DNA from: Ceratodon purpureus
Taxonomy: Eukaryota > Streptophyta > Bryopsida > Pseudoditrichales > Ditrichaceae
Direction of reading: 5' to 3'
NCBI GenBank assembly: GCA_014871385.1
Contig: CM026426.1
Location: 68,812,674 to 68,876,673, forward strand
Length of the DNA: 64,000 nt
Shown: in pieces, positions 9,051-62,308 of the stretch
How the letters are laid out: each line of letters begins with the position of its first letter
How positions within the stretch are numbered: the first letter of the stretch is position 1
The notes under the pieces: generated by a model
Databases searched by the model: none
What the model saw: the letters and a program-made list of their open reading frames with translations, nothing else
What the model was told of the DNA's origin: nothing
Position numbers and translations under genes: made by a program

Positions 9051-10189
9051 TTTAGTAGCGGTTTGTGATTCGAGGCTTGGTTTGTTCTTAAACGCCTGGG
9101 AATTTTGGCGTCTTGTTGTTTTCATGTTGTGGAAATTAGGTTGGGTATGGGTAGAGCTAAGTCTAGGATCGTTTTTGCAATTCGTGCTGTTCTCGAATGC
9201 TCAGAACCTGCTTGTTGTGTTTTGTGAAGGTGAATCTGTGGCCTGGTTTAGGACTTGAGAGAGTTTGTAATATTTTGAGCCGTCTCATTGTGGGTTTTTG
9301 GAGATTATGGCTGTTTAGTGCATTTTTGGGACTCTGACATTCTGTTGTCGTCTGTAGTCTCGCGTCACGTACACAGAAAGGTAGTCGACTTCCGGATCAT
9401 TTGTGACTTATAAAATTTCCACACAGCAAGTTAAGCAGCTTGTACGATTTGTAGTAAACTCCATGTAGAAGTTTCAAGGAATTCTCTCTGTTTGTTGGGT
9501 TTTTAGACTTTACAGCACTGAATCTTTGGTAGGCTTGATATATTTCTTGAAAATTCTTTGACTCATGGTGTTGAGTTATGCTCGAAGGCTCCGAATTGGA
9601 TCTGCCCGTTTGTATCTGTTCCACATACTCATGTGTTTTGTGTATACATACATTCTTTATTGAAAAGAGCTTGGTGTCATGCAGAGATGTAGCCCTATAT
9701 GCTTTCGGAGTCGGAGCTACCGGAGCAGATCCTTGAAACCCTTCTGAGCTTCCATGCGTGTATCATTCGGATGGTCAATCTTCTATCAAGGTTCTTCATT
9801 CAGGCTGCTATATGGAAAAATGCCTCGCAGTTTCGTTCATTTCTTTTATTCGAGACTTATTCTTGTCCTGTTGCTTTCATTTTGTCTTTGGAATAACTGT
9901 GTCTCAAAATCATCTGCAGCATTTGTCTTTCACAATACAGCTACATGAGGCCTTATGTAGTCCTTCGTAAGCATCCTTCGGAAGCGTCCTCTAATTTCAG
10001 AGCTTGCAAAAGCTGTTAGTTGTCCTTCAATTTTTTTTGAGATCTCACCACGTAACTTACAGGACACATGTCTTTTTATAGAACCCATCTGCAGTGACCA
10101 AAGTTTGATTGAGTTTTAGGAGGAAGGAAACCACAATTTGCAGTCCGCAGTCTCTCATCTACACCCTTTCATTCACAATTCATCATCTA
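9051..10189. other. No gene seen
   Basis: T/G-rich sequence resembling intron or degenerate intergenic DNA. Several frames of 60-80 codons exist in overlapping registers (for example 9754-9970) but none has recognisable composition or motifs. Confidence 0.4.
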
Positions 10190-10195
10190 CATTTT

Positions 10196-10500
10196 CACAT
10201 CTACAGTCTCAAACAGTTTTACTCAAACAGTTTTACTTAAATAGTTTTACTCAAACAGTTTAAACAGTCTTGCTTAAACAGTCTTGCTTAAACAGTCTTG
10301 CTTAAACGGTCTTACTTAAACAGTCTTGCTTAAACAGTTATTACTCAAACAGTTTTTACTCAAACTCAAACAGTTTTTACTCAAACAATTTTACTCAAAC
10401 AGTTTTTACTCAAACAATTTTACTCAAACATTTTTTACTCAATCAATTTCACTCAAACAATTTATACTCAAACAATTCCACTCAAAAAAATTTACTTATA
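10196..10500 (+). repeat. Minisatellite, 14-16 bp units, two subtypes
   Basis: Tandem units of about 14-16 bp, visible by eye. The first and last blocks use ACAGTTTTACTCAA-like units (10213-10260 and 10340-10500). A middle block uses ACAGTCTTGCTTAA-like units (10264-10340). Toward 10500 the units drift to ACAATTTTACTCAA and decay. The open frame running through it (10326-10577) is a translation of the repeat (KQFLLKQF periodicity) and not a gene. Confidence 0.85.
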
Positions 10501-12010
10501 TGAACAGTATTGCCTATATGATTTCATTTACACAGTATTGTTTATATGGTTTTGACAAGATGGTTTTGTTTGAATGATTTTACTTCAATGGTTTTGTTTT
10601 CGTTTTAATTGAAAGTTGATCAAGTTTTTATTGAAGATTATCAAACCAAATGTGTTTGTGTTAAACAAATGTAGTTTTATTTTATGAAAATTATGAAGAA
10701 AAAATATCTAATTTTGTTATCCAATTCTTATTGATTTAATATAGAATAAAAATACACAATACTATTTTCAAGGATCATTACATTTATTAGTTTTAAAATG
10801 CATGCTATGTGTCTTAAAATAAATTCAAAAAAATAGTAATCTAAGACAGTTAGATGGTAAATCATTTGATTAGAAAAGAGAACTTTTTATGTATAACCAA
10901 TAATTTTATCATTCTATATGAGATTATATAATAAATTTGACATCAAACAATTATTTTACAATGATACATTGAAACTAAAGTATTCCAAAGATTAAACATT
11001 AGCTCAAAAGTCTATAGTAATTTTATGGCAACATTGACCTTGGAAAAGATAAACTTTCAATATTGAAGTGTAATTTTTTTTTTTATTGCTTGACATCTCT
11101 ACAAAATCTGGCGTTTTTTTTTTTAATTGTAAATAAACAATGAATATATTATAATGTGAGACATTAGGAATATCCAAAACAACTAGGAAGTAAAATTTTA
11201 CAAGATTTTATACAAAAAAATGCAATACATTTTCAACAAAAATTAGAAATTATTTTTATTTTTTATTAGTCAAATCATTGTTTAAAACATTTAGTAGATG
11301 TGGAGTTGATTACATTTCATTTAAAAGAAAAATATCTGAATGTTTATTGTAATGTTATTTCCAACAAAGCTAGACTGTAGTCTTGGTTGAAAAATCTTGT
11401 AATATCAAAGGTCCAATAAAACATGCTCTTTTCATATCATTTGAATTCTATATATTACATTTTTCTAGAAAAAATTAGACCTTTTTTATAAACATATTTT
11501 AGCCATCAATTAAAGCAAGTTGATTACCATTCTTTACAACTAATCTTTATCAAAATTAATAATAATTTTATAGCAATATTTTAACAAAATGTTATTATCA
11601 CCTAAAAGACCAAGCGTTTGTTGTACAAACAATTGAGATTCTACACAAGTTTCTACAATGTCAATTTTCAATGTGATTTTTTGAAAACATTTGTGGAAAT
11701 AAGAAATTACAAGAGCTTTTAGTGCATATAATTTGTAGTTCTACTATAACTCTAAAAAAAGAGAAGTTTTGCTCCTTTAAGTCATTTTTCCTCAGCAATG
11801 GATGAACTCCAATTTTTTTGGCCACAATCCTTTTGTACCTTTGATTTTTATACAAGTCACAATATGATTTATTTTAGACTTCCAAAATAAAATTATTTCA
11901 ATTATGAAAATATCTCCCTTTATCATTTTTCAAAAGTTTGCTACATTGTTTTATTTTATTTAAAAATATATATTTTTGTAAATTAACATCGTAGGAACTC
12001 GTCCAAAATT
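10501..12010. other. Very AT-rich stretch, no gene
   Basis: About 1.5 kb of strongly AT-rich sequence with poly-A/T runs, clearly richer in A+T than its neighbours. No open frame of note, no LTR or inverted repeat, and no organellar gene that I recognise. Base composition changes sharply near 12010. Confidence 0.5.
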
Positions 12011-13018: not shown

Positions 13019-14428
13019 GTGGAGATGAGGAGGGCGGGTGGGAGTTTGTGGAGGGCGAGAGCAGGATTGGGAGGTGCGTTGCAATCCCAGTTGCAACCCC
13101 AGCATGCGAGATCATACGCGAGGTCAGTGGTGTTGTCGGAAGAGGAGGGGCAGCAGCGCGTTGTCGAGGCTTCGCTGACGTTGGTGCGGGAGCTTGCGCG
13201 CCTCAAGGCCGATCATGTTCGCAAGCGTGGTGGCGCCATTGCCACTAGTTGCATGCTTGGAGTTCCCTTGGGTCACAATTCCTCATTCCTCCAGGTACGT
13301 CACTTCCCCAATCCCATCTCTCACAACCAAATCAAAATCACCGTTAGAAATCGCTTGAAATTGTTCAGGGCTCATGCTATTCGTTCCATCCAAAATCCAG
13401 TTCTTAACCCAACCAGAGCCCTTCCAGATGCGATGCTATGCTTGATCTCACGAGGGTTATGTTTTGAGATGTGATGATACTATGGATAAGACATGTTGAT
13501 GCGATTTGCGTCTGGGTTTTGTCGAATTGGGTTGGGATTTTGCCCTGGATTGCAGAAGCGGTCGGTGGGGATGTCAGTTAGAATGCAATGTACTATAGAA
13601 GAATATCTAACTGACAACAGTATTTGGTTGATATTTTAGGGTCCAGCATTCTCTCCTCCGCGAATCCGTGAGGCGATCTGGTGCGGCAGTACAAATTCCA
13701 CCACCGAGACAGGGAAGCAGCTGGAGGATGTTCGGGTGCTCACCGACGTCGGCGACGTGCCCATCCAGGAGATGCGGGGATGCGGCCTCCCGGACGAGAA
13801 GCTCATGCGCACCATCACGGACTCGGTGAAGCTCGTGATGGACGAGCCCCCTCTGCGGCCCTTGGTCTTGGGAGGCGACCATTCGATCTCATTCCCTGTT
13901 GTGCGTGCGGTTTCGGAGTTTCTCGGGGGGCCTGTGGACATCCTCCACATTGACGCGCACCCGGACATATACCACGCGTTCGAGGGGAAGCACTACTCGC
14001 ATGCGTCTCCTTTCGCTCGCATTATGGAAGGTGGCCATGCCCGGCGGCTCATCCAAGTGGGGTTGCGGTCAATAACCCAAGAGCAGCGTGATCAAGCGAA
14101 GAAGTTTGGAGTGGAGCAGCATGAGATGCGAACATGGAGCCAGGACCGGGAGAAGCTTGAGAATCTTCATCTCGGCGAGGGCGTCAAAGGCGTGTACATC
14201 TCCATTGATGTGGATTGCCTCGACCCCGCATACGCTCCCGGCGTTTCACACATCGAGCCTGGTGGTCTCTCGTTCCGTGATGTCATGAACATCGTGCAGA
14301 ATTTGAAGGGGGACATCGTAGGCTGCGATGTGGTTGAGTTTAACCCTCAAAGGGATACTGTGGATGGGATGACTGCTATGGTTGCCGCGAAGCTCGTCCG
14401 GGAGCTTTGTGCGAAGATGTCCAAGTGA
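13019..14428 (+). CDS. ARGAH: Arginase, mitochondrial (two exons)
   Basis: Arginase hydrolyses arginine to ornithine and urea, the main route of nitrogen release from stored arginine in plant mitochondria. Two exons (13019-13294, 13640-14428) join in phase 0 through a 345-bp GT-AG intron (CCAG/GTACGT ... TTTTAG/GGTCCA) to give 354 residues, the usual plant length. Residues 1-35 are rich in Arg, Ala and Gly with few acids, as in a mitochondrial presequence; ATG at 13025 is an alternative start. Binuclear manganese motifs are all present: GGDHSISFPV, DILHIDAHPDIY and SIDVDCLDPAYAPG. Plant signatures KGVYISIDVDCLDPAYAPG and EFNPQRDTVDGMTAMVA are nearly canonical. No stop or frameshift was seen. 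Agmatinase is the nearest alternative family, but the plant arginase-type C-terminus argues for arginase. A single intron is fewer than in seed-plant arginases, which have several. Confidence 0.93.
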
Positions 14429-27696: not shown

Positions 27697-29503
27697 GGCC
27701 TCCTGAAGCACATATCAAAGTAAGTTATATTCCATTTCGCTACACATAACGGACGATGAAACCCTTCCATGATTTCGTACCCTTTCTTAGTATATCTTGT
27801 TGTTGTCGAATTCGTCAAAAGCTCTCATGTCAAATGCATACTATGTCCCCCGAACCAAGATAAAAAGGATGAAGACATTAGAGACCTACATCTTTGAATT
27901 AAATGTTGTTTCATTTAAATCGAACTCAATGCGACATGGTCTTCTGTGATGTGTTCTCTCAAACTAATCAAAGTTCATGCTGCGTAAGCTTCGCCCTCTA
28001 CCGCACACTCTAGATAGTTGGATAACTACTTCGATTGCAACTAACGCACTGTTTTCCAATACCATATCTACATGAACTACTCTGGCGCTCTCTGAATCCT
28101 AGCCTTATCTCCCTCTTCAACAACAATTTAAATATCAGACACAGAGCAAAATAATGTCTACAAAATGTAAACTCATTCTCTTGTTTCGTCTAAACATGCA
28201 TCAGAGTTAACAAAAGAATCTACGCGGTTGTGAAGCAAACAAATTTCTATACAACTCTCGTACCTAGAGAGATGCGAGGACCTCTTCAGCAAGACAATGA
28301 CGCTTCCTCGTATCCACACAGAAGCGAATTATGCGCCAACAGTACACTAAACTAATCCAGAAACAGTCGCCACCGAAATGAGAATGGCAACCAGAGAACA
28401 CTCTCCCGAACTTTAAGTAGTCATCGAACATGTACATATATTCAAAAAATGACGAAGAGTTTCTGCAGGGGATTACCATATGTAGTCAAAATGAACATTT
28501 TGAAGACGGCTGGGGTCGAAATCTTCTTATTATGCGCCATCCTCAAAAATCTTCACTCAAAGATAGATGTGTATGCAGTAATGATGCATCCTCCATGCCA
28601 CGTTCCCAAACCATGACATCTTTAGACCACTTCACCGGATTGATAAGACAAGTTACGCCCGAGATACACTCATGACGTCTCATCACCGGAAGATTTTATC
28701 TGCTTGTCACATCTGTCTTGTCAAAACCACTGTTCACTTAATCTCATCCAGTAAACGAATGTACTATGAAAAATGATTGAAAATCGGCTTCACCAGTCAG
28801 CATTCTGTTTGTACTAAACAAACGCAGCTCCTTAAAGAACTAAACCTTGCTTCAATTTTTCTAATATGTAATACACTTTGGTTCACGACAGATTATGATG
28901 AATTCCTTGTGATATATCTTGAGAACTAAACTATCATAAACATACGAAAATTATAGTTAGAAGATGCTTCTTAGGATGCCAGTGACTTCCAATTTCATCG
29001 TATGTTTTTTTCCGATACAGATTAAAAATCCTTTGAGGTATTATACATAAATGGATATATAAAAATCACAACTACTCTTCATTCTGAAGTACTCAAATGA
29101 ATAGTTCAAAACAAGTCGAGCTATGTTTGAGGGACACGCTTATTAATGAACCAAGACGGGGTTATACACTGGATATACGATTGCAAACATTAGATTATGA
29201 ACAACTTGTGAAGTATGAGCTATAGATGGTTGCTTGGTAATGACGATATTTTCAAACAATAAATTCTTCCATTTAGTAAGACCACAGACCAAAAATGACA
29301 TGGATTCCTATTCCATTACTCTTTGACGGATTCAGGTTGCAACATATGTGAATTGCCGAACAGTACCAAGATCAAAACAGAGTGTTAATTGAACCCATTA
29401 ATACAAACTGATACCAATACTTATAGATGTGCTAGATTGACCAGCAACTGTTAAAAATTTTGGACAACAAACTTTCTTCAATTACACATGTCGTTCTAAA
29501 GCA
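27697..29503. other. No gene seen
   Basis: AT-rich sequence upstream of the three-exon gene, probably holding its leader and promoter in the first few hundred bases. Short frames on both strands are not convincing. It ends sharply at the inverted repeat of the next element. Confidence 0.4.
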
Positions 29504-29540
29504 TTAGGTGCAAATTCAGGTCACAAAAAGGCCGTGTAAG
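29504..29540 (+). repeat. Left terminal inverted repeat of the 3.1-kb element
   Basis: TTAGGTGCAAA, then AGGCCGTGTAAGC after a less conserved spacer. It pairs with the complement of 32575-32611 over about 35 bp with a handful of mismatches. The dinucleotide TA at 29505-29506 is the probable target duplication. Confidence 0.8.
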
Positions 29541-32500
29541 CGGCACGTGAGAGAAAAAAACAGGCGCTGCCCGCGTACTTTACCTCGTGGCACCGGCTGT
29601 GCCACCGTGGTGCCAGCAACCGCCACAGGGGCTCAAACCAATGACCTCCGAGCGAGGCGTGTGGAGGGCACATCTACAGTGCCGGGTTGACAGCGGACTG
29701 GCGGAGCAAGGACCGGATCCCGAGCGGACTGCTCTTGTCAGCAAACTTTCTGCCAGCACTTTGAACGAGGAAATTATGAGTCCACCCACCTACCTCCCCC
29801 ACCGACAATGAGTGAGTGCCGAAGTTTTTGAACTATGTAGGGAGAGTGAGTGCAGCCAGCGGGTGTTCGGCGCTACGGGAGAAGCGACGCACTTGGGAGA
29901 TTGGTTGCAGCCAGCGGGAGTTGGGGCTGAGAGGATTCCAGCTGATTTGGGAGAGTGGGTGTGGGTTAGTGCGAAGGGAGAGACACGTGATTGTGGAAAT
30001 TCTGTGCCGGCAGCAAGAGTTAGCACTTGCTGGGAGTTGACGAGGTGATTTGGGGTTGTGGGTATTGTTCATGTAGCGAATTGTGCTTGAGTAGTTACTT
30101 GCTGAATCAAGGTGGAAGTGCGGCTTTCTTCGCTGTCAACTCAATGTGCCGTTTGCTGCCAGCGAGCTACAAAACTAGGTAATTTTTTTTTCAATATGAT
30201 CAATTTTTTTTTCTCAACCTGAAACGTGGCAACTGGCCAAATCTCCTGCTCTGATTGTACCGAGAAGTACCTCTCGTGGTCCACCTGAATGTTAGTGTCC
30301 AGAGCCCGATTCATCAACGTGATGCTAACACGTTCAAATTTCTTCACGTTAATAATCTCTGCCTCATCCAGCTTGAGGACAAATATCAACGGAGCCCCTT
30401 CCAACTCTGCAAGAATATCCCCACGTGAGAATGTTTCTGTAATGCAATCGAATTAGCTTCCTTTGTTAAAGACACACAATGCAGTTGCTGGCACCAAGCG
30501 AACATTCACCATTGCTGTCAACAATAGAAGAAGAGGATGCATACCTGACTCCGTGATGCCATAAAAGATCACCATGCTCTGCTGGACCACCTCAAGGTCC
30601 GTGAATAGCGAGTTTTTTTCATCTAAGACCACCTCTTTTCGCTGCTCCTCGGATTTTTTGGTTTTCTTTGACACTGCTGGCAGCTCCATCCTTCCCTCAG
30701 CGTGGTAGTACTGGCCAATGAATTGTGGCAAGTTTGCATTTAGCTCCTGCCGAAGCCTTCTGACGTGGTAGGGACTAGGTAGTATCTTGGATTTGGCATC
30801 CTTGGTCAAATCCCGAACTGGAGCCTTCACGGCTTGGTAAATTGCACCATAGCCGCGATAAGACACCCCTGCTTGGTCGCAGGCAGCAAGAATATTACTC
30901 GGCCCTACCCTTTTTCCAATTGCCTTGAGGACGTTACTAGCAATCTTTCTCTTAACATGCTCCATAGATGGCTGAGTTGCGAGGGTGAGACCTTCATGCC
31001 TAGTCAGTATCTTTGCTAACGCTACAGCAGTTACTGTTTGGGAGGCTTTATCCCCATGAAGTCGCTGCTTCTCATGGTTGACCCGGTTGTTGTCGTTGAC
31101 AGCATCCACGAGATGAGGTTGCAAATGCGTCCTAACGAGCTTCACTCTGCGTTTTGCCCACCCTGAACCATGATTCAATTCATGAATCCCCCTGAGCGGT
31201 CGAGCCCTACGTCGCATCCCCATAGGCGTGTCCTTCAAAGGGCTAGGCTCCTCCGGTAGGCGCTCACTTGCTTGCTGCCAGCGACGCACCTCGGTCTCCA
31301 AGCCCTGCACCGTCACCCTATGATTTCTCTCCATGCTGCTCATCTCGGTTCGAATAGTCTCCAATTCAACCCGCAATTGCATGCATGTATCCTCAATGTC
31401 CCTGTTATGGTCGAGCCTCTCTCTGCTGCCAGCAAGGTCGTCTCTCACCTTGCCGAGTTCTTCTTCTAAATGTCGGCACTGCATTTCCATCTCACGCCGT
31501 GTAGGTCCAATTTCATCAACAAGACCCAATCTGCGTGCATATCCATACAGACCTTGCTCTCCATGACATATGAATTCCAGGCAATCTCGAAGAGTTATGA
31601 ATGGAGGTGGCCTCCCTGTTCCTGGATCAACCGGGTAAATGCTGCCATCGACCCACAAGTCAATGTTTGTATCCCCGGCTGCCCTTCGTCCCGGAAATGT
31701 TGATGGGCAGTGTTGCTCGGATCTCATTGAACCTCTCCTAACAAGTGGTGCATAGCGTGCATCAAGCTCAGCATTAACACGGTAGCTTGAAGGCTCCACC
31801 CCTCGTGCTGCCATCGTGAGTCCAGAATTCCGAAGTAGTGATTCAAGCTCTCATGGCCCCTCCATCGACCTGGAAGTATGCATAGAATCGTTTGTAACAT
31901 TGCCATATACCCAAAACCGCAGAGTTCACAACAACCAAACCCTATACCATAGCCAGTCAAGGAAATTGCAGGATCAAATGAATAGCATGCAATGTACAAA
32001 TGCACGACCCAAAATTGTCATAGAGAAATTGACACTTACACAACCTCTTCAGTCCACGGCATGACGTGTTGCAAGAATACCCTTCGAATGCTTGCTGCTC
32101 GAATTTGTAACTACTGCCAACGCGTATCTGCACAATCATGCTCACTGGTTTAGTTCTCACAATTTCCCTTGACTCTCTCAAATTTCACCTGCGAATTGGA
32201 ACGTTAGTCCTGCAACACCAAAATTCTACGCATTCAACTTCGATTCACCCCATTCCTAGGTGGGGAGACCAACCTATTGTCGACCGAGCTCCATGGCTTC
32301 TTCCCGTTGTCGCAGCAAACTTCGAATCTTCAAACGGTTGACACCAATCTCCCGTCATCTCTCCTTCGAATTGGGCTTTAACTTCACTAAATGCGAGAAG
32401 GCGTGGTTCACCAAACAAGGCAGCCACCTCGGCGCCACTAGGCACACCGACCCGCCCCGCAACCCCTTCCCGAGACCATTAAGTTGCCCTATTAACTCTG

Positions 32501-32608
32501 CGGGCAGCGATCCTGGCACCCGCTGCCAGCGACAGTGCCGCATTTGGGCAGGGAGTTCACCTAGAAAGGGCAGGCTTACACGGCCTTATTTTGACCCCAT
32601 TTTGCACC
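29507..32608 (-). mobile_element. Unassigned 3.1-kb DNA transposon with TIRs
   Basis: The element starts GGTGCAAA and ends TTTGCACC, with about 34-bp inverted repeats sharing GGTGCAAA and AGGCCGTGTAAGC, and is flanked by TA on both sides (29505-29506, 32609-32610). Base composition is clearly more GC-rich than the surroundings. The exact octamer CTGCCAGC or its complement occurs at 29750, 30156, 30676, 31275, 31426 and 32523, and near matches (GCCAGCGGG, GCAGCCAGC) cluster close to both ends. It encodes one recognisable gene, a two-exon protein of unknown family (30141-31814). The region 31815-32608 has no coding frame I can support and probably holds the promoter and leader. The family is not one I can name; a truncated relative of a larger autonomous element is likely. 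Confidence 0.8.
30141..31814 (-). CDS. Element-encoded coiled-coil protein of unknown family
   Basis: Exons 31814-30545 and 30436-30141 join in phase (TCAG/GTATGC ... ATTACAG/AAACAT) to 521 residues. Residues about 1-95 are a globular-looking N-terminus (DLWVDGSIYPVDPGTGRPPP). About 105-190 form a heptad-rich coiled coil (RREMEMQCRHLEEELGKVRD). About 200-235 is basic (MRRRARPLRG, WAKRRVKLVRTHLQPH). A long helical domain follows, with ILAACDQAGVSYRGYGAIY and LPSPYHVRRLRQELN. The end, IFVLKLDEAEIINVKKFERV and YFSVQSEQEIWPVATF, looks like the opening of a further domain, but the frame soon runs through two A-rich tracts (KKKLIILKKK) and stops. I infer that the 3' half of a larger protein was deleted. 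The function is unknown; a DNA-binding or transposase role is plausible from context only. No catalytic triad could be assigned. Confidence 0.65.
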
Positions 32609-32611
32609 TAA
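32575..32611 (-). repeat. Right terminal inverted repeat of the 3.1-kb element
   Basis: GCTTACACGGCCT and TTTGCACCTAA mirror the left end. TA at 32609-32610 matches the TA at the left border. Confidence 0.8.
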
Positions 32612-32737
32612 TGAACTAAGTTATTTGACATTTCAAGGATTCTAAATAGTGGAAAAAAGATCACTTCTACAGTTGTAATGTTTAAAGAAAATTAAATGGA
32701 GAAGAAACAAAAACAAAGAAAAAGAAGGTAAAACAAA

Positions 32738-33541: not shown

Positions 33542-36500
33542 CTATAGAGCAATAGCGTTGTCAACGTCGTTCAGGACGATCGCCCCTGTCAAATCAGGCT
33601 CCCGTGCTTGATTTAGTAGCTGCGAGCTCGGTATAGCACCATTGGCAGTGTCGGTATTTGCCAGATAAACTTCGTCATCTTCCTCTACTTGCCTCCTTGA
33701 CCTAGCTTCCTTCTTCAGGACAACCTTCCAATGCGAACCAGGAGGATGCAAATTGTCATCTGCCAAAAATATTTGAGTGCACTGACATGGAAAGGCGTAT
33801 GGATCAACTGATTAGGCAGGTTGTGTTTAAAATTAACGACCAAAAACCCGTCTGCATCACGAACGTATGTCCTGTTACCATGATTGTCCATTCTTTTCTT
33901 CCATGTACATGAGAAAACGATCACGGGTGTCTTCAAGTCGCCGTATCTAGGAACCAGTATGTCCTGCAGCACTCCAAGATAGTCTTTACCAGACCCTGCA
34001 GTCATATCACTTGATTCGAAGCATGCTACGCCACAATCAAAGTTCGGCATACTTCGACTAGCCTCATCGTCGACCCTCCAATGATTCCCATACGCAGACA
34101 TACGTGCGTATCTTTTACATGACAAACTGGGTGGGTTTGACAAAAGCACTGTGTCCGATTCATTAGGATCAGCCATGTCAAGGTCCATCGCATGAATACG
34201 TTGTTTCATCCATACCTCCAAGGGAGCCACAGGTCCTACTGCACGTTCCCTTTCCAACTCCCACTGACTGCGCATTTTGTACCACAACAGTGTCACCAAA
34301 ACATGAATGACGTCCCACCACTCAAAACATTCCTCCTCATTGTAACTGTATTCGGCTTTGCCAAAACAGTATGCACGTAACCACTATAAACATATTCTAC
34401 ATACATGAAGTAATCGCATGTCAAATTCGACTGTCCATAAATTAACAAATTTGTAATCACACAAAGAAACTCTGATACGGTATTTCAGTATTAAAACTAT
34501 ACATTCATATAAAGCACATAAACTGCTTTGTGAAGTCTTACCTGTAATAAGGAGCTGTGAGTGTATTGTTGCGCAGTATGAATTTATGGAGAGCATCCCG
34601 ATCAGACCGAGAGAGGATGACATCGACAAAACCTCCCTCCAGAACTTCAAACTCAGAGCTATCCTCAGGATCTGCGTCCCAAACCCTTCTCCTCACAACA
34701 TCGAAGCCATGCATATAGGACGTTGCAAATCCCATGGTTTCGTCCAGTGAGTATCCTTGCGCAATCGAAGCTTCCGGACGGGCTTGGTTCTTCACATGAT
34801 TTTTAAGCATCATCATTGTCCGTTCGATCGGAGACATCCATCGAACATGTGTAGGTCCCAAGATAATAAGTTCATTGACTAAATGGTGAGGCAAATGGGT
34901 CATTACATCAAAGAATGTAGGGGGGAAGGTGATTTCAAGGAGGCACATAGTCACTGCCGCATCTTCTCGCAAGTCATCCGCCTGGGCTGGATCGAAAACT
35001 TTGCTGCAAAGGCGACGGAACAGACGGGAAGCCCTCATTATAGCCATTCGAGTAGTAGGCTCCATTAGCCCCCGTAAAGCCAATGGAATAAGTGTCTGCA
35101 TGAGAATATGGTAATCATGCGACTTGAGAGCACCAAATTTCCTGTTGCGAATATGACAACCAATTTCGGAACAGTATCCACTTGGAACCTTCAATTTCTC
35201 AAGCCTAGTGCAGAAAATGTCAAACTCCTTCACAGTCAGCACATAATTCGCCTGCGGTTTAAGCATTCGTGTAGGAATATTGGGATCTCTAACCATCCAC
35301 AGATGCGGTCTGATGCCCTCTCTTTGCATATCTCTTCGAACCTTTACACTGTCTTTTTCTTTAAATCCACGGATGGTTTTCATCACGTTCTCAGCAAAGT
35401 TTTTCTCACAATGCATTATGTCCAAAGTGTTCCTTATTTCGAGATGCTGCACATGAAAATTTACTTGGTTATAAAAATAGTTTCCAAGCTGAAGCTCATA
35501 TCCAGACAATCATTGATGTCATGTGTTAAGCAATACTGATATTCACACATTCAAGCCAAACATTATTCAGTTGAACAAAGCAGTTCAAAATCAGACTTAG
35601 TAGTGGGCTATAAGTTGGAAATTAACAAACCTCCCAGTACGGCAACTCATAAAAAATCCTGCCCCTCTTGATACCGTACACTTTTGATGGATCAGGTGAC
35701 TTTCCCCTCCTCCTTCTGGTTGTCGACGTAGTCAGTCTTCTGTTCGCAGCAGTACCTGGGGTCGTCGAAGAAGACGGAATATCTGAGTTGACATTACATG
35801 ACTGAGGAACTGTTTGGGAAGGTTGCTTCCTCTTACGACCCCGAATCTCAGAGGCAGAATCCCTCTGCCTAGTTCCCTGCCCTCCTACTGTAGTCTGTCC
35901 GATACCTGTTTGAGTGGTCGTGGTATGCACTCGCTCTGTACTTCGATTTTCCTCTGCTGGATGCATCCTCCTCCTCCCATGCCTGGATAGGTACTCCGTA
36001 TACTCCCTTAACGCCTCTCTCTGTTGCACTGGTGATTTCGTGACTCGCCGCATTCTCTCCTCAGGACGTCCATTAAAAAGTCTATCGATTTGTGGAGATC
36101 GGAGAATATGGTTTGGGGGTAACCACCGCCGGGAATCTCTGTACGTTATCTTTCGAGATTCATATGCATAAGTCCCCCTCAACTGGTCTCCACAGGGAGG
36201 GCACGCTACGTATCCTTGATGCGACGCTCCCGAAACAATGCCGTAACCAAGGAAGTCATGGGTAGTGTAGAGTACTGCCGCTCTTAATTGTGTAGTACAC
36301 GTTGACCTTTGGGCCTCAAGATATCGTATGCTGGTACGCCACTCCATAGCGTCTTCAACTCGTCAATCAGAGGCCTAACCCATACGTCAAAGTATTCAAT
36401 TGGTACGTGGTGTCTGCCTGGAATTCACAAGGCCAATAAAGTAAAAAACTTCTTGGTGATCAACCAAGGTGGCAAATTTAGAAACGTAGCAATGACAGGC

Positions 36501-37828
36501 CAAGCACTCCACGTGGACCAGTGGAGTTTAAACGGGCAAATACCGTCACAACTGATTTGCATGCGAACGTCGGTATCCTCCGCTCCAAATCCCATGGTGT
36601 CGAATATATCTGGACTCATGTTATCCATTGTTCTCCAAGCGTTAGAATCAGCAGGGTACCTGATTTTCCCGTCGGAGCTTGTATTCTCCTCGTGCCACCT
36701 CATGAGCTTTGACAAAATAGGTATCCGAAAGAACCTCTTTAGGCTAGGCGTTACCGGGAAGAACCTGAGAACCTTCAATGGCTTGGTTTTGTGAAACATA
36801 TCCCTATACCGAGGTGAGTTACAAATTGAACATCGATCAAGATCTTTTGTGTCGCTGCCATCGAAGAGAACACACCCAGATGGACACCCGTGTATATTTA
36901 TAAACCCCAAACCAAGCCGGTTTGTCATGGTCTTAGCCTGGTATAGAGACCCTGGCAAGACGTTATCATGAGGCAGAAGACATTTTACTGTCGCAAACAA
37001 ATCATCAGCAGGTTTGTCCGTGATTCTGGGATGTGTGGCGACCACATTCACGAGCATCACTGTTGCGCCTAACTTCGTTGTTGTAGATCCACTGTAGAGC
37101 AACTGCATCGCCTCCTCTAAGGCTTGCACATCTCTAGCTCGCTCTGTCTCCAGACTTTCATCATTTGTGTTTGGAGTATCTGTTCCCCTTCCTCTGTCGT
37201 TACCAGTGCCAGTCTCAGAGTTCGGGAAACCATCAGAACAATGTTGTGGACGATCGTCCTCTGGGATGTTGTTCAAGTCATCTTGCTTTCCAGCATCAAG
37301 TTGGTCTTCATGTGTGATGCTCCCTACCCCTCCCGTAGAACGGATGTCTGCTTCAGTATTTGGAAAGTTCTCTTGGTTTATTCCTGTTATGTCGTCAACG
37401 GTCTGCATAGCCTCCATAGCAATGTTGTTGATTTGCTCTTCCGAAGCTGCAACCTCCTCCACCTGTTGAAACATATCTTGCATCATTCGTCGCATTTCCA
37501 ATCCATTGTCCCAATCTGTCCGTTCTCGCGTTCTCTCCGCCTGTCTTGCTGAAAAATCTTGGTCCCATTCGTCGTCGGAAGAGTCAGGATCTTGAGGTCC
37601 TCTCTAGACACGGCACTCAGGGTCTCTTCCATAACGAATTAAATGCCTCTCTACCACTTCTAAACTAAAAGGCAGACCTATGCCTTTGTGTTTTTTACAT
37701 GGGCATGGTATTTTTGTGAAACCGTATATTTTCGCACATTCCTGTTCCCTGATCCAGATTTTGTTGTCTCGATCTACTATTCTTCGTTTGTCTGATATTG
37801 GTAACCTCTGAGACATCCTGGTAGGCAA
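33542..37828 (-). pseudogene. CACTA transposase, tnp2 family (broken)
   Basis: From the N-terminus: a transposase-associated domain with CPCKKHKG (37828-37607); the tnp2 core with LGFINIHGCPSGCVLFD and CSICNSPRYRDM (37501-36425), then TTHDFLGYGIVSG and GYVACPPCG (36347-35631); LDIMHCEKNFAENVM; DUF4218 with FPPTFFDVMTHLPHHLVNE and GPTHVRWMSPIERTMMMLK (35446-34542); and DUF4216 with DLKTPVIVFSCTWKKRMDN (34299-33542). Introns fit at 35630-35447 and from 34541. Breaks seen: TAG at 37604-37606 after the first domain, TGA at about 36423 after FFTLLAL, a frame change just before LRAAVLYTTHDF, and a one-base shift in a T-run near 33775 before ADDNLHPPG. The order and content are those of a full-length transposase that has decayed only moderately. 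Confidence 0.85.
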
Positions 37829-47731: not shown

Positions 47732-49910
47732 TTAGCTAGCACCACAGGCCTTGGCGCTTACAAGGTGTAACATGTCCCTGAATTTGATGAATAAAGGTTT
47801 GCCTAAAGGCTTCGTGAAGAGATCAGCGACCTGTTCTTCCGAGGGCTTGTGTTGCACTTGAATTTCCCCGCTTTCAACCTTCTCTCTGGAATAGTGGTAG
47901 TGGGTGACGATGTGCTTCGTGCGTTGGTGAAATACTGGGTTGTAAGCAAGCTTGATTGCACTCTCATTATCGCAGAAGATAGTTGTGGGAATGTTGTCTT
48001 TGATCCCAAGATCAGCCAAGAGGATGTTGAGCCATACAGATTCTGGTGTGGAGTCAGATAGGGATCTGTACTCTGCTTCTGTGCTAGACAATGCAACGGT
48101 TGGTTGTCGCTTTGAGTGCCAGATGATGGGGTTTCCTTCGAGTTGGAAAACAAAGTCTGCTGTCGATCTTCCATTCTCCAGATCGCCGGCGTAGTCAGAA
48201 TCAACATGACCTACCAAGGTGAGTGGTTCCCCTCGTGTGAAGAGGATTCCAAAGTCTCTTGTGCCATTCAGGTAGCGCCAGATGCGTTTTACTGCTTTCA
48301 GGTGAGAAGCCTGAGGTTTCTGCATATACCTACTGCAAACGCCAACTGAGAAACTAATATTGTACCTGGTGTGAATAAGATGAATTAGCTTGCCAATCAT
48401 ACATTGATAGAGCTGGGGTTCCACTTCTTCTCCCATATCAGCTTGTAATTTCAGACGTTCAACCATAGGGGTAGCCGCAGACTGGCAATTGGTGAGTCCG
48501 AATATTTCAAGGCATTGCTCAATGTAGCGTTTTTGTGACATAAAAATGCCACGAGGAACTGGAATGAATTCTGCGGCCAGGTAAATTACCGAGCTTTCCT
48601 CCCCAAGCAGAGTCATTTCAAAGCGAGTCTCAAGTTGATGTCGAAACCAAGATACCCACTGTTTGCAGTTTCTGGTGAATAGAAGATCATCGATGTAAAG
48701 CAGTAGGATAAGAATTTTACCATCAGTACCAGAAAGCACGTAGAGATTGTAATCTGCAGTGCTCTTTCGGAGACTTTGGCTCTTGAGCCAAGTGTCCATC
48801 TTCTCATACCAGGCTCGGGGAGCCTCGCGAAGTCTATAAAGGGCTTTCCTTAACCGGCAGACAAGGTGCTCCCTCCCTCGTGCCGAGAAACCCTGAGGTT
48901 GTGTGACGTGAACCTCTTCCTTAAAGTCACCATGAAGGAAAGCAGTTTTGACGTCCATATGGACAAGTTCCCGACCGCGATTGGCAGCAATAGCAATTAC
49001 TGTTCTTATTGTCCCCCATTTCACCACGGGGGCAAAGATTTCTTCGAAATCAATCCCGGGCTTCTGTTCAAAACCACGTGTAACTAAGCACGCTTTGCAT
49101 TTTAGGAGAGAGCCATCACTTCGCAGCTTAGACTTGAAAACCCATTTTGTTGTAATTAGGGTTTTTCCAGGAGGCAAGGGGACTAAGTCCCAAGTTAGGT
49201 TTTTGTCAATGGAGGCCAGCTCATTGCGCATCGCGGAGATCCAGCAAGGATCGACGGCTGCTTCTTCAAAGGAGGCCGGCTTGGAGGGTCCTGGAGAGGA
49301 GGTGGTGCTACCGACGAAATAATCATCCCACCAAGGAGGACGTGAGGTGCGGCGACGGGCATGAAGAGGTGGTTCGCTAGTAGCAGTGAGCGGTGAAGCT
49401 GGGCGCTTCAGTCCACGAGTGTCTGTAGGGTGAGACTCATCGTGAAAAGTGGAGAGGTCGTCAATGGAATCTGGCGTGGGCCATTCATCTCCGTCCGGGA
49501 GAAAGGCAAGTGGAGTAACGCTGACTTGTGGAATCGGATGCGGCATAGGGGTGCCAGTGAAGTCGTAAGGATCAGATCGCATCAGCGATGAGGGAGCGCT
49601 GGATGAGGGAGCAGCGCTTGGTGACGGAACCCTTGGGTCAGAGTGTGCGATGCCAGGGAAGAAAGCTTCAGCACGTGCTGACGCGGGTTGCGTTGAAGTG
49701 GCTACTTCAGGTGCAACGATTAGCGGCGCTAATTCTGAGTGAGCAGCGGGAGCGACAACTTCCTCAGTTGAGCTGGAAAAACTGCGAGACTCATCGAAGG
49801 TAACGTCACGAGTTATTGTGACTTTCTTCGTTCTAGGGTTAAAAACCCTGTAAGCCTGTGATGAGTCGTCGTAGCCCACGAAGATTGCGGTTTCAGCGCG
49901 TGACTCAAGC
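47732..49910 (-). pseudogene. Copia reverse transcriptase and RNase H region
   Basis: Fossil of the second half of copia Pol. Recognisable landmarks are the start of the RT domain (WDLVPLPPG, TTKWVFKSK), the RT active-site box YIDDLL, and the RNase H region (ALSSTEAEYRSL, IFCDNESAIKLAYNP, VADLFTKPL). Order and spacing are typical of Ty1/copia elements. Part of a non-autonomous fossil copy. Confidence 0.9.
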
Positions 49911-50085
49911 TTGTGCCGCTCATGCTTGTGCAGGTGGACATAAGGTCAAGACACCTAAAACCAATCATTTAAGAGATTATGCATGCAATATGGAGCTGGA
50001 TTGTTGCAAAGTAATTTTTCCTCCGCAGAGAAATAGGGTTCTTGAGGTTTTGAAATTTTTTCAAATTTTTTTATCGAGTGTGCAA

Positions 50086-50970
50086 ATACCGTAGTTTCCT
50101 AGCAGGTTCGGCACCTCACTGCCTAATAATTAATTAAAGTGGGAAAATGAGGTTAGGCACCTCAAAAAATGATATCCAAAAGGTTAGGCACTTGTGAATC
50201 TTAATTAAATATGGATTAGACACTCATCCAACATCTAAGGCATAGAATGCTCAGTTACTTATACACGAGGAATGGAGTTATATTCAACAATGCATGTGGG
50301 ATATGTGAACTTTGAGTTGAAACAACTAGTTAGTCTTCATTTTAATAACAAGCATAGCTTTTGCAAAAAGTCTCCAAATGACACAAAATTTGTTGGAGGT
50401 GAAAGATAGCATGATTTTAAAGCTTTTCTTAGACCAAAATATTTTAAAAAAAGTTGATTTTCTATGCACAATTGAGCTTTAAAAAAACTGTTTGGAACAC
50501 ATTTTGATACATGGACCTTTACGTGCTGTTTTGTCCATATCTTTTGCATGAAAACGTTTTTTGACATAAATCTTGTTGGAGATGGAAGAAGGCTTGGTTA
50601 CTCAACTTTTCTTAGTTCATCACATTTTCATATAACTTCATCTTCTATGCTCAATCACAGTCCAAAAATCTGTGTACAACACATTTCGAAAACCCCACCT
50701 AGAGTCTTGTTACTTCTTAACCCATATTCTTTGTGGAGTAGTGTAAGTGGGCTTGATTACAAAAGGAGCACCTTCTCCCTCATTTCAATCATTCGAAGCT
50801 TCATAGAGAGATATAATCTACAGAAGGGTAGATTTTTCTCAATTTTAGGCAATGATGAATTTTAAATTTCATACTATTAGGCAAAAGATGTCCATAATTT
50901 CCAAAAATTTTAGGCATTAATTTTTAGAATTAATTTGTGCCGAATCTGCTAGTAAGGTACGGGTAACTAT
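50086..50970. mobile_element. Nested element with imperfect inverted ends
   Basis: CCTAGCAGGTTCGGCAC at the left (50098-50114) is mirrored by GTGCCGAATCTGCTAG at the right (50937-50952), extending outward to CCGTA on both sides, about 26 bp with four or five mismatches. GTTAGGCAC-type motifs recur inside near the left end (50113-50190), and TTAGGCA occurs near the right end. No coding capacity was seen. The exact border and target duplication are unclear. This is the third insertion level: lectin gene, copia, 2.56-kb insert, this element. Confidence 0.5.
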
Positions 50971-60630: not shown

Positions 60631-62046
60631 CTACTCTTCCATAATATCAGAATCACTACTTGATTCTGAAAATTGGATAGTCGACTCTTTTGACAAATGG
60701 AATTCCCAAAGAGTTTTTGCAATTGACTCATGAGCCACGGTCGCTTCTCTCAATAAATCAGCATCTTTCTCATCTTGTTTGATCAAAAAAGCTTCTTCAT
60801 CAGCATCTACTTCTTCTTGCTCAAAATTCTGAAATGTAGCTCTCCCACCAGATTTCAGAATGCGTGATCTTACCTCTTCAATGGAAGCTCGTTCTCCTCG
60901 TATGACTTGTCCTCCCTTCACCGTACCATCTTCAACCCGTTTTTGCAATTCCACCTCGGCTTCTTCAATCCAAATTGCATCAAACTTGTCCTTTGTGATG
61001 ATGCATAAATTATGCAAGACAATGCAAGTGGCGACAATATCTGCCATTGATCGAAGTGGAACATCCGCTCTTTTCTGAATTATCCTCCATCTACCCTTTA
61101 ATATTCCAAACGCACGCTCTACACACATTCGGGTTGAAGATTGGATAAAATTCCAATGTGCCTTGTATGATTCAAGTCCATCATAACATCCTTTGAAGGG
61201 ACAATACATCCAAGGCCGAACCGGATACGCCGCATCTCCAATCGACTTGTATGGTAAAAATTTCCCTTCCATACAAGCTCTTCCAAACTTGGTTTGTTGA
61301 AAAACTGTCCAATCATGCAAGCTTCCCGCCCATCCGAACTCATAATCCCAGAAAATGCAGTTTGTGTCCACAATTCCTTGTAACAAAGCTGAATGGAAAG
61401 ACTTGCGACAGTAATAATCTTCTCCACCAATAACTCGAGCTAGCACCGGAATGTGAGAACCGTCTATGGCTCCTATTATGTACGGTATGTTATGCAGCCT
61501 CTCAAACTCCTTTGCTAAAACCCTAAGTTTGCTCTCATTTGGAATTTGAATGAAAATCTTTTGCAAATGTAATCTCACTATTTTACAAAATTCCCTCACA
61601 ATTCCTGAAATTGTACATTCCGCCACTCCGTACACTTCTCCAACCATACGCAATCCATCTCCTGTACCAAGCCTAGCCAAAGACATTGCAACTCTCTCTT
61701 CCACAGAAATTGTTCTCCTCAAATGAGTATGTTGTTTTCTCAAAAACAGACCTAATTTCTCACATAAAAATCTGAATGTAGCATGCGAGACACGGGTCCT
61801 TTCCTTAAACATCTTTTCTATAAATGAACTCAACAAGTACTGGTCTACAAAGCCAGATTGCCTCTCGAAACTCCAAACAATTCGCTCTCTAAACCCTAAA
61901 CTTTGAAGGAAAATGCTGAAAATTGCAACATTTGTCCACTCACCTTGTAAAATCAAAGCTTGCATGTTGTTCACATGCTGCGTAATCATGTAGAGACACC
62001 AATACAAGACCATCATCACCACAAGCTTCCTCCTCCTTTCCTCCAT
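60631..62046 (-). CDS. PIF/Harbinger transposase (DDE_Tnp_4), open frame
   Basis: A single-exon 471-residue protein, the normal length for this family, with no internal stop. An N-terminal helix-turn-helix-like region (about 95-165) includes SHATFRFLCEKLG and GEVYGVAECTISGIVREFC. The catalytic triad is in IIGAIDGSHIPV (Asp, about 218), GWAGSLHDWTVF (Asp, about 266) and MCVERAFGILKGRWRII (Glu, about 330). The C-terminus is acidic (SESSSDSDIMEE). The protein excises and reinserts Harbinger elements at TWA sites, usually with a Myb-like partner. The start was chosen at the ATG following ACAAGGAGG-like purines; the first 30 residues are hydrophobic, and a later start is possible. Confidence 0.92.
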   Translation of the reverse strand: MEERRRKLVVMMVLYWCLYMITQHVNNMQALILQGEWTNVAIFSIFLQSLGFRERIVWSFERQSGFVDQYLLSSFIEKMFKERTRVSHATFRFLCEKLGLFLRKQHTHLRRTISVEERVAMSLARLGTGDGLRMVGEVYGVAECTISGIVREFCKIVRLHLQKIFIQIPNESKLRVLAKEFERLHNIPYIIGAIDGSHIPVLARVIGGEDYYCRKSFHSALLQGIVDTNCIFWDYEFGWAGSLHDWTVFQQTKFGRACMEGKFLPYKSIGDAAYPVRPWMYCPFKGCYDGLESYKAHWNFIQSSTRMCVERAFGILKGRWRIIQKRADVPLRSMADIVATCIVLHNLCIITKDKFDAIWIEEAEVELQKRVEDGTVKGGQVIRGERASIEEVRSRILKSGGRATFQNFEQEEVDADEEAFLIKQDEKDADLLREATVAHESIAKTLWEFHLSKESTIQFSESSSDSDIMEE

Positions 62047-62308
62047 AGTGCTGAAATTTCAGTAAACAAGGCAAAAACAAGGAAAAATGAAGCAAAAGAA
62101 ACCACCAACAACTACATAAAGGAGACCGGCCTTGGGTACAAAGAAGAGGTAGTGTAGTAGAAGTTAGAATCAGCCCTATGCTATAAAATATCCTTAAAAA
62201 ATCAGCTCATTGTTTTTCGGCTCCTTCTCACTTTACACTCTATCCAAAGGACGTTGAATTAAAAGTTGGTCTTCTCAAGACTAGGCCGTGGCCCTTGGCT
62301 GATTTTCT

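Follow-up and report, generated by a model that had tools for sequence, protein, structure and literature searches.

The 64,000-nucleotide stretch of the Ceratodon purpureus genome analysed here (the window) contains a non-autonomous transposable element, a derivative of an approximately 11.5-kb transposon with two genes that arose through one deletion of 8,439 bp. The family to which it belongs inserts without duplicating target bases, and a short interrupted palindrome recurs along the entire length of its full-length copies. Taken as a whole, these features are very probably best explained by a deleted derivative of a cut-and-paste transposon that integrates with zero stagger, carries a palindrome that most likely serves self-recognition, and most likely belongs to Lanisha, a superfamily proposed by Maumus, McDaniel and Carey (Repbase Reports 2020).

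The element, its ends, and its copies

The element and its inverted ends are positioned in the window as follows:

29502..32613, minus strand (the strand of its gene): whole non-autonomous element, 3,112 bp, defined by its inverted ends, copies and empty site
29502..29541, plus strand: left terminal inverted repeat, 40 nt, beginning CATTAGGTGC
32574..32613, minus strand: right terminal inverted repeat, 40 nt, ending GCACCTAATG

An earlier note, made from the letters of the window, had placed a DNA transposon at 29507-32608; the element is indeed there, with limits 5 bp farther out at each end. The inverted ends it described are real (40 nt each, 88% complementary), as is the GC-rich body, which has 50.5% GC as compared to 40.4% in the 3 kb on either side. 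The designation as a DNA transposon is borne out by the inverted ends, the multiple copies, and the ungapped empty site of the window insertion. CATTAGG forms the left end in 20 of 20 copies of one set and in 9 of 10 of another, and CCTAATG forms the right end in 18 of 20 and 10 of 10 copies, respectively. End variants CATTAGGAGAAAAA and CATTAGGTGCAAA occur within one of the two subfamilies, subfamily A (L048/L049, L056/L057, L058/L059, L060/L061, L066/L067, L068/L069, L009, and L010), and the two ends of a copy vary jointly, as if coevolving.

The element is not single-copy: a genome search with the window element as query scored 40 of 1,695 candidates, and copy counts from such whole-element searches are lower bounds. 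At least 11 of the 40 scored copies, the window copy included, have the short 3.1-kb form at 97-100% identity, and in the remaining 29 the main match starts at query base 722. All 11 short copies are located on C6, as compared to 9 of the 29 others (Fisher p 1.5e-4, a comparison picked after the list was inspected). The assembly totals 362.5 Mb in 151 contigs, and C6 accounts for 110.5 Mb of it; the U and V chromosomes of Ceratodon purpureus are each larger than 100 Mb, about 30% of the 360-Mb genome (PMC8000587, in excerpt). The 3.1-kb deletion derivative may be limited to C6, the presumed sex chromosome. Among 13 copies compared, flanks are shared only between L007 and L009, and the copies have therefore spread by transposition rather than by regional duplication. 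A fragment of roughly 0.4 kb next to one long copy (L015:4983-5384) has the two element ends and is perhaps a miniature derivative of the family.

Other features of the window include CACTA/EnSpm-type remains (DUF4218 and Transposase_21) on the minus strand at 34541-37603, about 2 kb from the element, in which no site of the palindrome described below occurs within one mismatch. A Copia-type polyprotein (RVT_2) lies at 47735-49945, and a transposase frame with DDE_Tnp_4, which we take to be Harbinger, lies at 60634-62058. An arginase-family frame at 13640-14425 (E 8e-66) is the clearest host gene of the ten frames scanned.

Full-length copies, the internal deletion, and the two genes

The longer copies that the earlier note recommended looking for exist, and three were read from end to end: C3 (11,747 bp), C1 (11,545 bp, C1:8905513-8917057), and C13 (15,469 bp, with an insert). 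The C1 copy has a complete transposase frame. The window element matches the C1 copy exactly in two pieces, bases 1-705 and 9145-11545, with the following junction:

30206..30211, no strand assigned: deletion junction, where bases 705 and 9145 of the C1 copy abut and 8,439 bp are absent

The abrupt end of the reading frame in A-rich tracts, from which the earlier note deduced that this copy is related to a larger element by internal deletion, is thus a true deletion junction (30206/30211), and the deduction was right because the junction is exact against the long copies and common to all eight short copies examined (of 11 known). The deletion takes out the second D, CxxC, H, and E of the transposase core as well as the entire second gene. 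The 8.4-kb deletion stripped the element of most of its core and of all of gene 2 and spared both ends. The short form, which occupies no fewer than 11 places on C6, would then have been mobilised in trans by transposase encoded in full-length copies.

The transposase gene retained in the window consists of two parts, both defined by alignment to full-length copies:

30545..31814, minus strand: transposase exon 1 (423 codons plus 1 base), with a coiled coil, a basic patch, and the ILAACDQAGVSY block
30141..30436, minus strand: truncated transposase exon 2, which holds the first D (LKLDEAEI)

As first described, this is a two-exon gene of 521 codons in consistent phase: the spliced sequence is 1,566 nt long, its sole stop is codon 522, and the GT donor of exon 1 is conserved against full-length copies. 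Exon 2 reads across the deletion junction and then reaches a chance stop. The 521-codon frame encodes the front part of a transposase whose full length, 982 aa, is preserved elsewhere: the minus-strand gene of the C1 copy is split into three exons, bordered by GT/AG, that join into a single open frame. Stops occur in the frame of the four other long copies read (C3, C13, L020, and L021). A coiled coil and a basic region come first in the 982-aa protein, followed by the core. The possibility that the coiled-coil frame encodes a protein the short copies need was considered and rejected; the 521-codon frame is intact in two of the eight examined, which gives no sign of such a requirement.

Gene 2 is a same-strand frame of about 655 aa in C1 and C3, shortened to 322 aa in C13. 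Its product has a coiled-coil-like middle and a Cys/His cluster, both judged by eye; to call the cluster RING-like is a guess, and the matches to it are weak (PEP5, E 2.1). No Pfam match was found for gene 2 at E <=1, and two pieces of it gave chance-level matches only. In subfamily B, the element measures about 11.0 kb, has related ends, and carries the two genes in the order found in subfamily A. Between subfamilies A and B (dS about 1.3), dN/dS is 0.11 in the core (385 codons), 0.35 in exon 1 (319 codons), and 0.36 in gene 2 (506 codons), and these low values indicate that all three parts were under selection. Between two close subfamily A copies dN/dS is 0.57, a value counted against the best explanation.

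Of 150 scored core matches, 31 tie at one subfamily B score and lack internal stops. The tied copies, among them L036/L037, are found on C1-C10, C12, and C24, and the tied scores and open frames suggest very recent or present activity. With many identically scoring copies and open frames, the system would seem recent enough for tests in laboratory moss.

An element-wide palindrome

Overlapping eight-mers in TGCTGCCAGCA are overrepresented in full-length copies, and TGCTGNCAGCA is an 11-bp interrupted palindrome. Four full-length copies, two per subfamily, contain 8, 10, 10, and 8 exact sites, as compared to 0.00-0.05 expected per copy from dinucleotide shuffles; with at most one mismatch there are 20-26 sites per full-length copy (0.3-0.8 expected), a density of about one near-match per 0.5 kb along the whole element. 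TGCTGNCAGCA is the commonest interrupted 11-mer palindrome in both subfamily A (8 occurrences, next 1) and subfamily B (10, next 5). The short copy in the window contains these sites:

31424..31434, no strand assigned: exact TGCTGNCAGCA in exon 1
29608..31283, no strand assigned: eight one-mismatch sites, at 29608, 29748, 30005, 30154, 30486, 30513, 30675, and 31273

Dinucleotide shuffles of the window element predict 0.32 sites rather than these nine. The rest of the window contains no exact site, and two one-mismatch sites where 1.7 are expected. Genome-wide, TGCTGNCAGCA occurs exactly 3,159 times, as compared to 433 for the same pattern with a gap one base longer and 339 for a different palindrome with matching base composition; these two controls were added because the reversed pattern (92 sites) includes CpG, which makes it an unfair control. 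The first 50 genomic sites listed all lie within the initial 6.03 Mb of C1, and 41 of them belong to five family copies, of which four were located through their ends and the fifth solely through its gene.

Along 11 kb, the distribution of sites shows no departure from evenness (KS p 0.24 and 0.81). Both genes contain sites, and 15 of the 26 sites in the C1 copy are within gene stretches. In codon-preserving shuffles, the observed number of sites was reached in 0 of 300 trials for four of six frames: the subfamily A transposase (six one-mismatch sites, none exact), subfamily A gene 2, and the exon 2 and gene 2 frames of subfamily B, the last three scored on exact sites. The exon 3 frame of subfamily B gave a weak result (17 of 300), and its exon 1 frame has no site. 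For four of the 12 coding sites in subfamily A, subfamily B carries a site at the corresponding alignment position.

The palindrome is most likely a self-recognition site for a protein encoded by the element, in the manner of either VANC or TnpA; by analogy with those systems, such a protein would bind TGCTGNCAGCA on the element's own DNA. In a VANC-like model, the gene 2 product or the transposase would coat the element and keep it unmethylated, and in a TnpA-like model the sites would serve synapsis (PMC2613891, in excerpt). A role unrelated to silencing, in which the sites serve a transposition factor resembling the TnpA of CACTA elements, is a serious possibility, if not the likelier one. 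In CACTA elements, TNPA binds repeated short motifs of the element that encodes it, yet these motifs are subterminal and, in a soybean element, lie 159 and 732 bp away from the termini (PMC2613891, in excerpt). The short copy of the window, which still moved, retained its nine sites, but the even spread of the palindrome along 11 kb and its presence across both genes argue against a purely subterminal role.

It is unlikely that the palindrome is instead a binding site for a host protein or a by-product of base or codon composition. Gene stretches, where codon choice acts, contain roughly half of the sites; however, neither the dinucleotide shuffles nor, for four of six frames, the codon-preserving shuffles reproduce the palindrome. 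Only the 1-bp spacing is enriched (gaps of 0 and of 2-5 yield no site), and 78 kb of flanking DNA contain no exact site. Self-recognition by an element protein is the preferred reading, and it makes the palindrome a directly testable candidate site for that protein.

The transposase core and the identity of the family

The core of the C1 transposase contains, in order, D447, D544, CIYC (564), HVIVRH (794), and E819. CxxC and HxxxxH are invariant in three aligned sequences (two of subfamily A and one of subfamily B), and the spacing of D, D, CxxC, HxxxxH, and E resembles that of RAG1. D447, D544, and E819 are the putative catalytic triad, named by motif and by a weak alignment to RAG1. The earlier note had found no DDE triad, which is correct for the window copy; the triad was lost through the deletion rather than missing from the family, and its first D (LKLDEAEI) remains. 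With loose spacing, the ordered motif is matched by 11 of 20,000 shuffled cores, for a pattern fixed after the sequence had been inspected.

In a PDB search, 37 residues of RAG1 align without gaps across HxxxxH-x19-E at E 0.61, which is not significant alone. A collinear stretch of negative score pairs the second D and CxxC of the core with a D and CxxC of RAG1; the RAG1 residues paired with the motifs of the core are presumably its catalytic and zinc residues. Linker L1 outscored RAG1 in the same search (E 0.028), a match judged not meaningful, and apart from it the PDB matches of the core are RAG1. A profile built from three family members retained Linker L1 and lost RAG1, and a search with a 64-aa piece around E gave no match. 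Pfam returned nothing for the core at E <=10 and only a weak Tup_N match (E 0.62) for the whole transposase; Transposase_21 (tnp2) is absent from the whole-protein matches (E <=1) as well as from those of the core (E <=10). The Pfam RAG1 model has no matches in this genome or in 14 control genomes, and the scans run on viral contigs and prokaryote genomes found no relatives. Structure prediction for residues 195-423 of the window protein gave a pLDDT of 44.5, and the model was set aside. Neither Pfam nor PDB gave a significant match for the transposase. Judged by its motifs, which form a RAG1-like signature, the core probably fits the CMCT clade.

The family had been described as possibly undescribed, and this is probably wrong because the CMCT motif signature occurs here in the genome of Ceratodon purpureus, and the authorship of Lanisha points the same way. 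It is most likely the Lanisha of this moss, an assignment reached by inference rather than by comparison with the Repbase consensus. Two of the three Lanisha authors, Carey and Maumus, are also named on the Ceratodon purpureus genome preprint. Lanisha likely comes from the same organism and shares C(2)C, H(3-4)H, and CA..TG ends with the window family (PMC12730594, in excerpt). First-look candidates number 975 and 1,086 in two genome searches, and so abundant a family would hardly have been overlooked earlier.

That the family is instead a distinct RAG1-like lineage, as yet without a name, with the same anatomy is improbable in view of the shared authors and shared features. Such a lineage would accord with the lack of a significant match in Pfam and PDB, and with one difference: CMCT elements, Lanisha named among them, are described as duplicating 2-5 bp of target (PMC12730594, 2025, in excerpt), whereas the window family duplicates none. 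In the duplication-free transposon literature, Lanisha appears in no title or abstract start among the matches listed, and the partial texts examined contain no earlier description of the missing target duplication or the palindrome. These two features, the lack of a target duplication and the element-wide palindrome, look new.

Insertion without target duplication

The bases outside CATTAGG and CCTAATG were compared at both ends of 33 subfamily A copies, with expectations taken from re-paired flanks. The flanks match at 1 bp in nine copies (8.6 expected), at 2 bp in one (1.9 expected), and at 3 bp or more in none (0.6 expected at 3). None of 10 subfamily B copies has a flank match of 3 bp or more; the set comprised 12 copies, two of which were dropped when the right end was not found. 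No strong target motif was seen at the 33 junctions.

Empty sites were sought genome-wide for L001, L004, L005, L006, and L044/L045, and in the retrieved DNA for all 33 joins. They were found for eight insertions, and in seven of the eight the flanks meet without a gap. The empty site of the window insertion, C6:71232043-71232202, joins 29501 straight to 32614 (96.3% over 300 bp, with the 50 bp around the junction identical). Ungapped sites were also found for L005 (two examined), L006, L044/L045 (three examined), L042/L043 (86%, with mismatches adjoining the junction), and L004 (76%, 173 bp versus 173). The remaining ungapped site is a paralogous one within the window:

50602..50777, plus strand: paralogous empty site of L040/L041, outside the element, 84% over 176 bp, ungapped

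Against L017 and L011, which represent one locus, L040/L041 shows one 1-bp gap, away from the junction. The eighth insertion, L009, differs from its empty site by 1 bp at the junction; the alignment, at 88%, contains two other 1-bp gaps. The match of L068/L069 to its own flank (73.6%) was left out of the count.

The family therefore inserts without duplicating target bases. We infer blunt strand transfer at directly opposed target bases; the transposase would join element and target without a stagger, and with zero stagger the empty site is exactly the left flank plus the right flank. The length of a target duplication is treated as a mark of a transposase superfamily because it reflects the distance between the two active sites on the target DNA. 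Zero stagger in a RAG1-like group, if real, would offer a natural test of what determines this distance.

The earlier note had taken TA as the target duplication; no TA duplication is present in 43 copies or in the empty sites, and the TA lies within the inverted repeat (CATTAGG/CCTAATG). From a single copy, the TA adjoining GGTGC on both sides and a target of CATTAATG would look alike, but the CAT/ATG outside the TA is retained in nearly all of 30 copies and the junctions of the empty sites contain neither TA nor CATTAATG. A TA-duplicating transposon (Tc1/mariner-, PHISTA-, or ESTA-like) is ruled out, for practical purposes, by the seven ungapped empty sites. Helitrons and Cryptons likewise lack target duplications, but a duplication-free mover of such chemistry has a negligible probability given the 40-bp inverted repeats at both ends, the DDE-type motifs of the core, and Pfam matches for either element protein that include no Rep, helicase, or tyrosine recombinase.

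Comparison with known systems

Transib and RAG1 share with the core the order and spacing of the second D, CxxC, HxxxxH, and E; they differ in lacking a significant sequence match to the window family, and they make a 5-bp target duplication. EnSpm/CACTA elements are likewise large plant elements that encode a transposase and a second function, give rise to deletion derivatives, and carry reiterated short motifs as well as CMCT-type motifs. In contrast to the window family, they have a 3-bp duplication, CACTA ends, and subterminal rather than element-wide motifs, and the window family has no Pfam match to Transposase_21.

Spy, of the PHIS superfamily, is also a duplication-free DDE cut-and-paste transposon, although its transposase represents a different lineage. 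Spy has a strong preference for AAATTT targets (PMC4482050, in excerpt), which was not seen at the 33 junctions of the window family.

VANDAL elements are Mutator-like, and VANDAL21 of Arabidopsis resembles the window family in having a family-dense short motif and in encoding a protein additional to the transposase. The motif bound by VANC21 is short, dense in VANDAL21, and only sporadic elsewhere; VANC motifs lie mostly outside coding sequence, share one orientation, and frequently form tandem repeats (PMC5735166, in excerpt), whereas TGCTGNCAGCA is palindromic, dispersed, and also coding. The likeness to VANC21 is one of motif pattern and extra protein, and an anti-silencing role here is hypothetical. 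Tentatively, and with a good deal of doubt, the family might represent a RAG1-like DDE lineage on a moss sex chromosome that has shifted to blunt integration and bears, along its full length and within exons, a palindrome read by one of its two proteins to sustain the element's activity, an independently evolved counterpart of the Arabidopsis VANC system.
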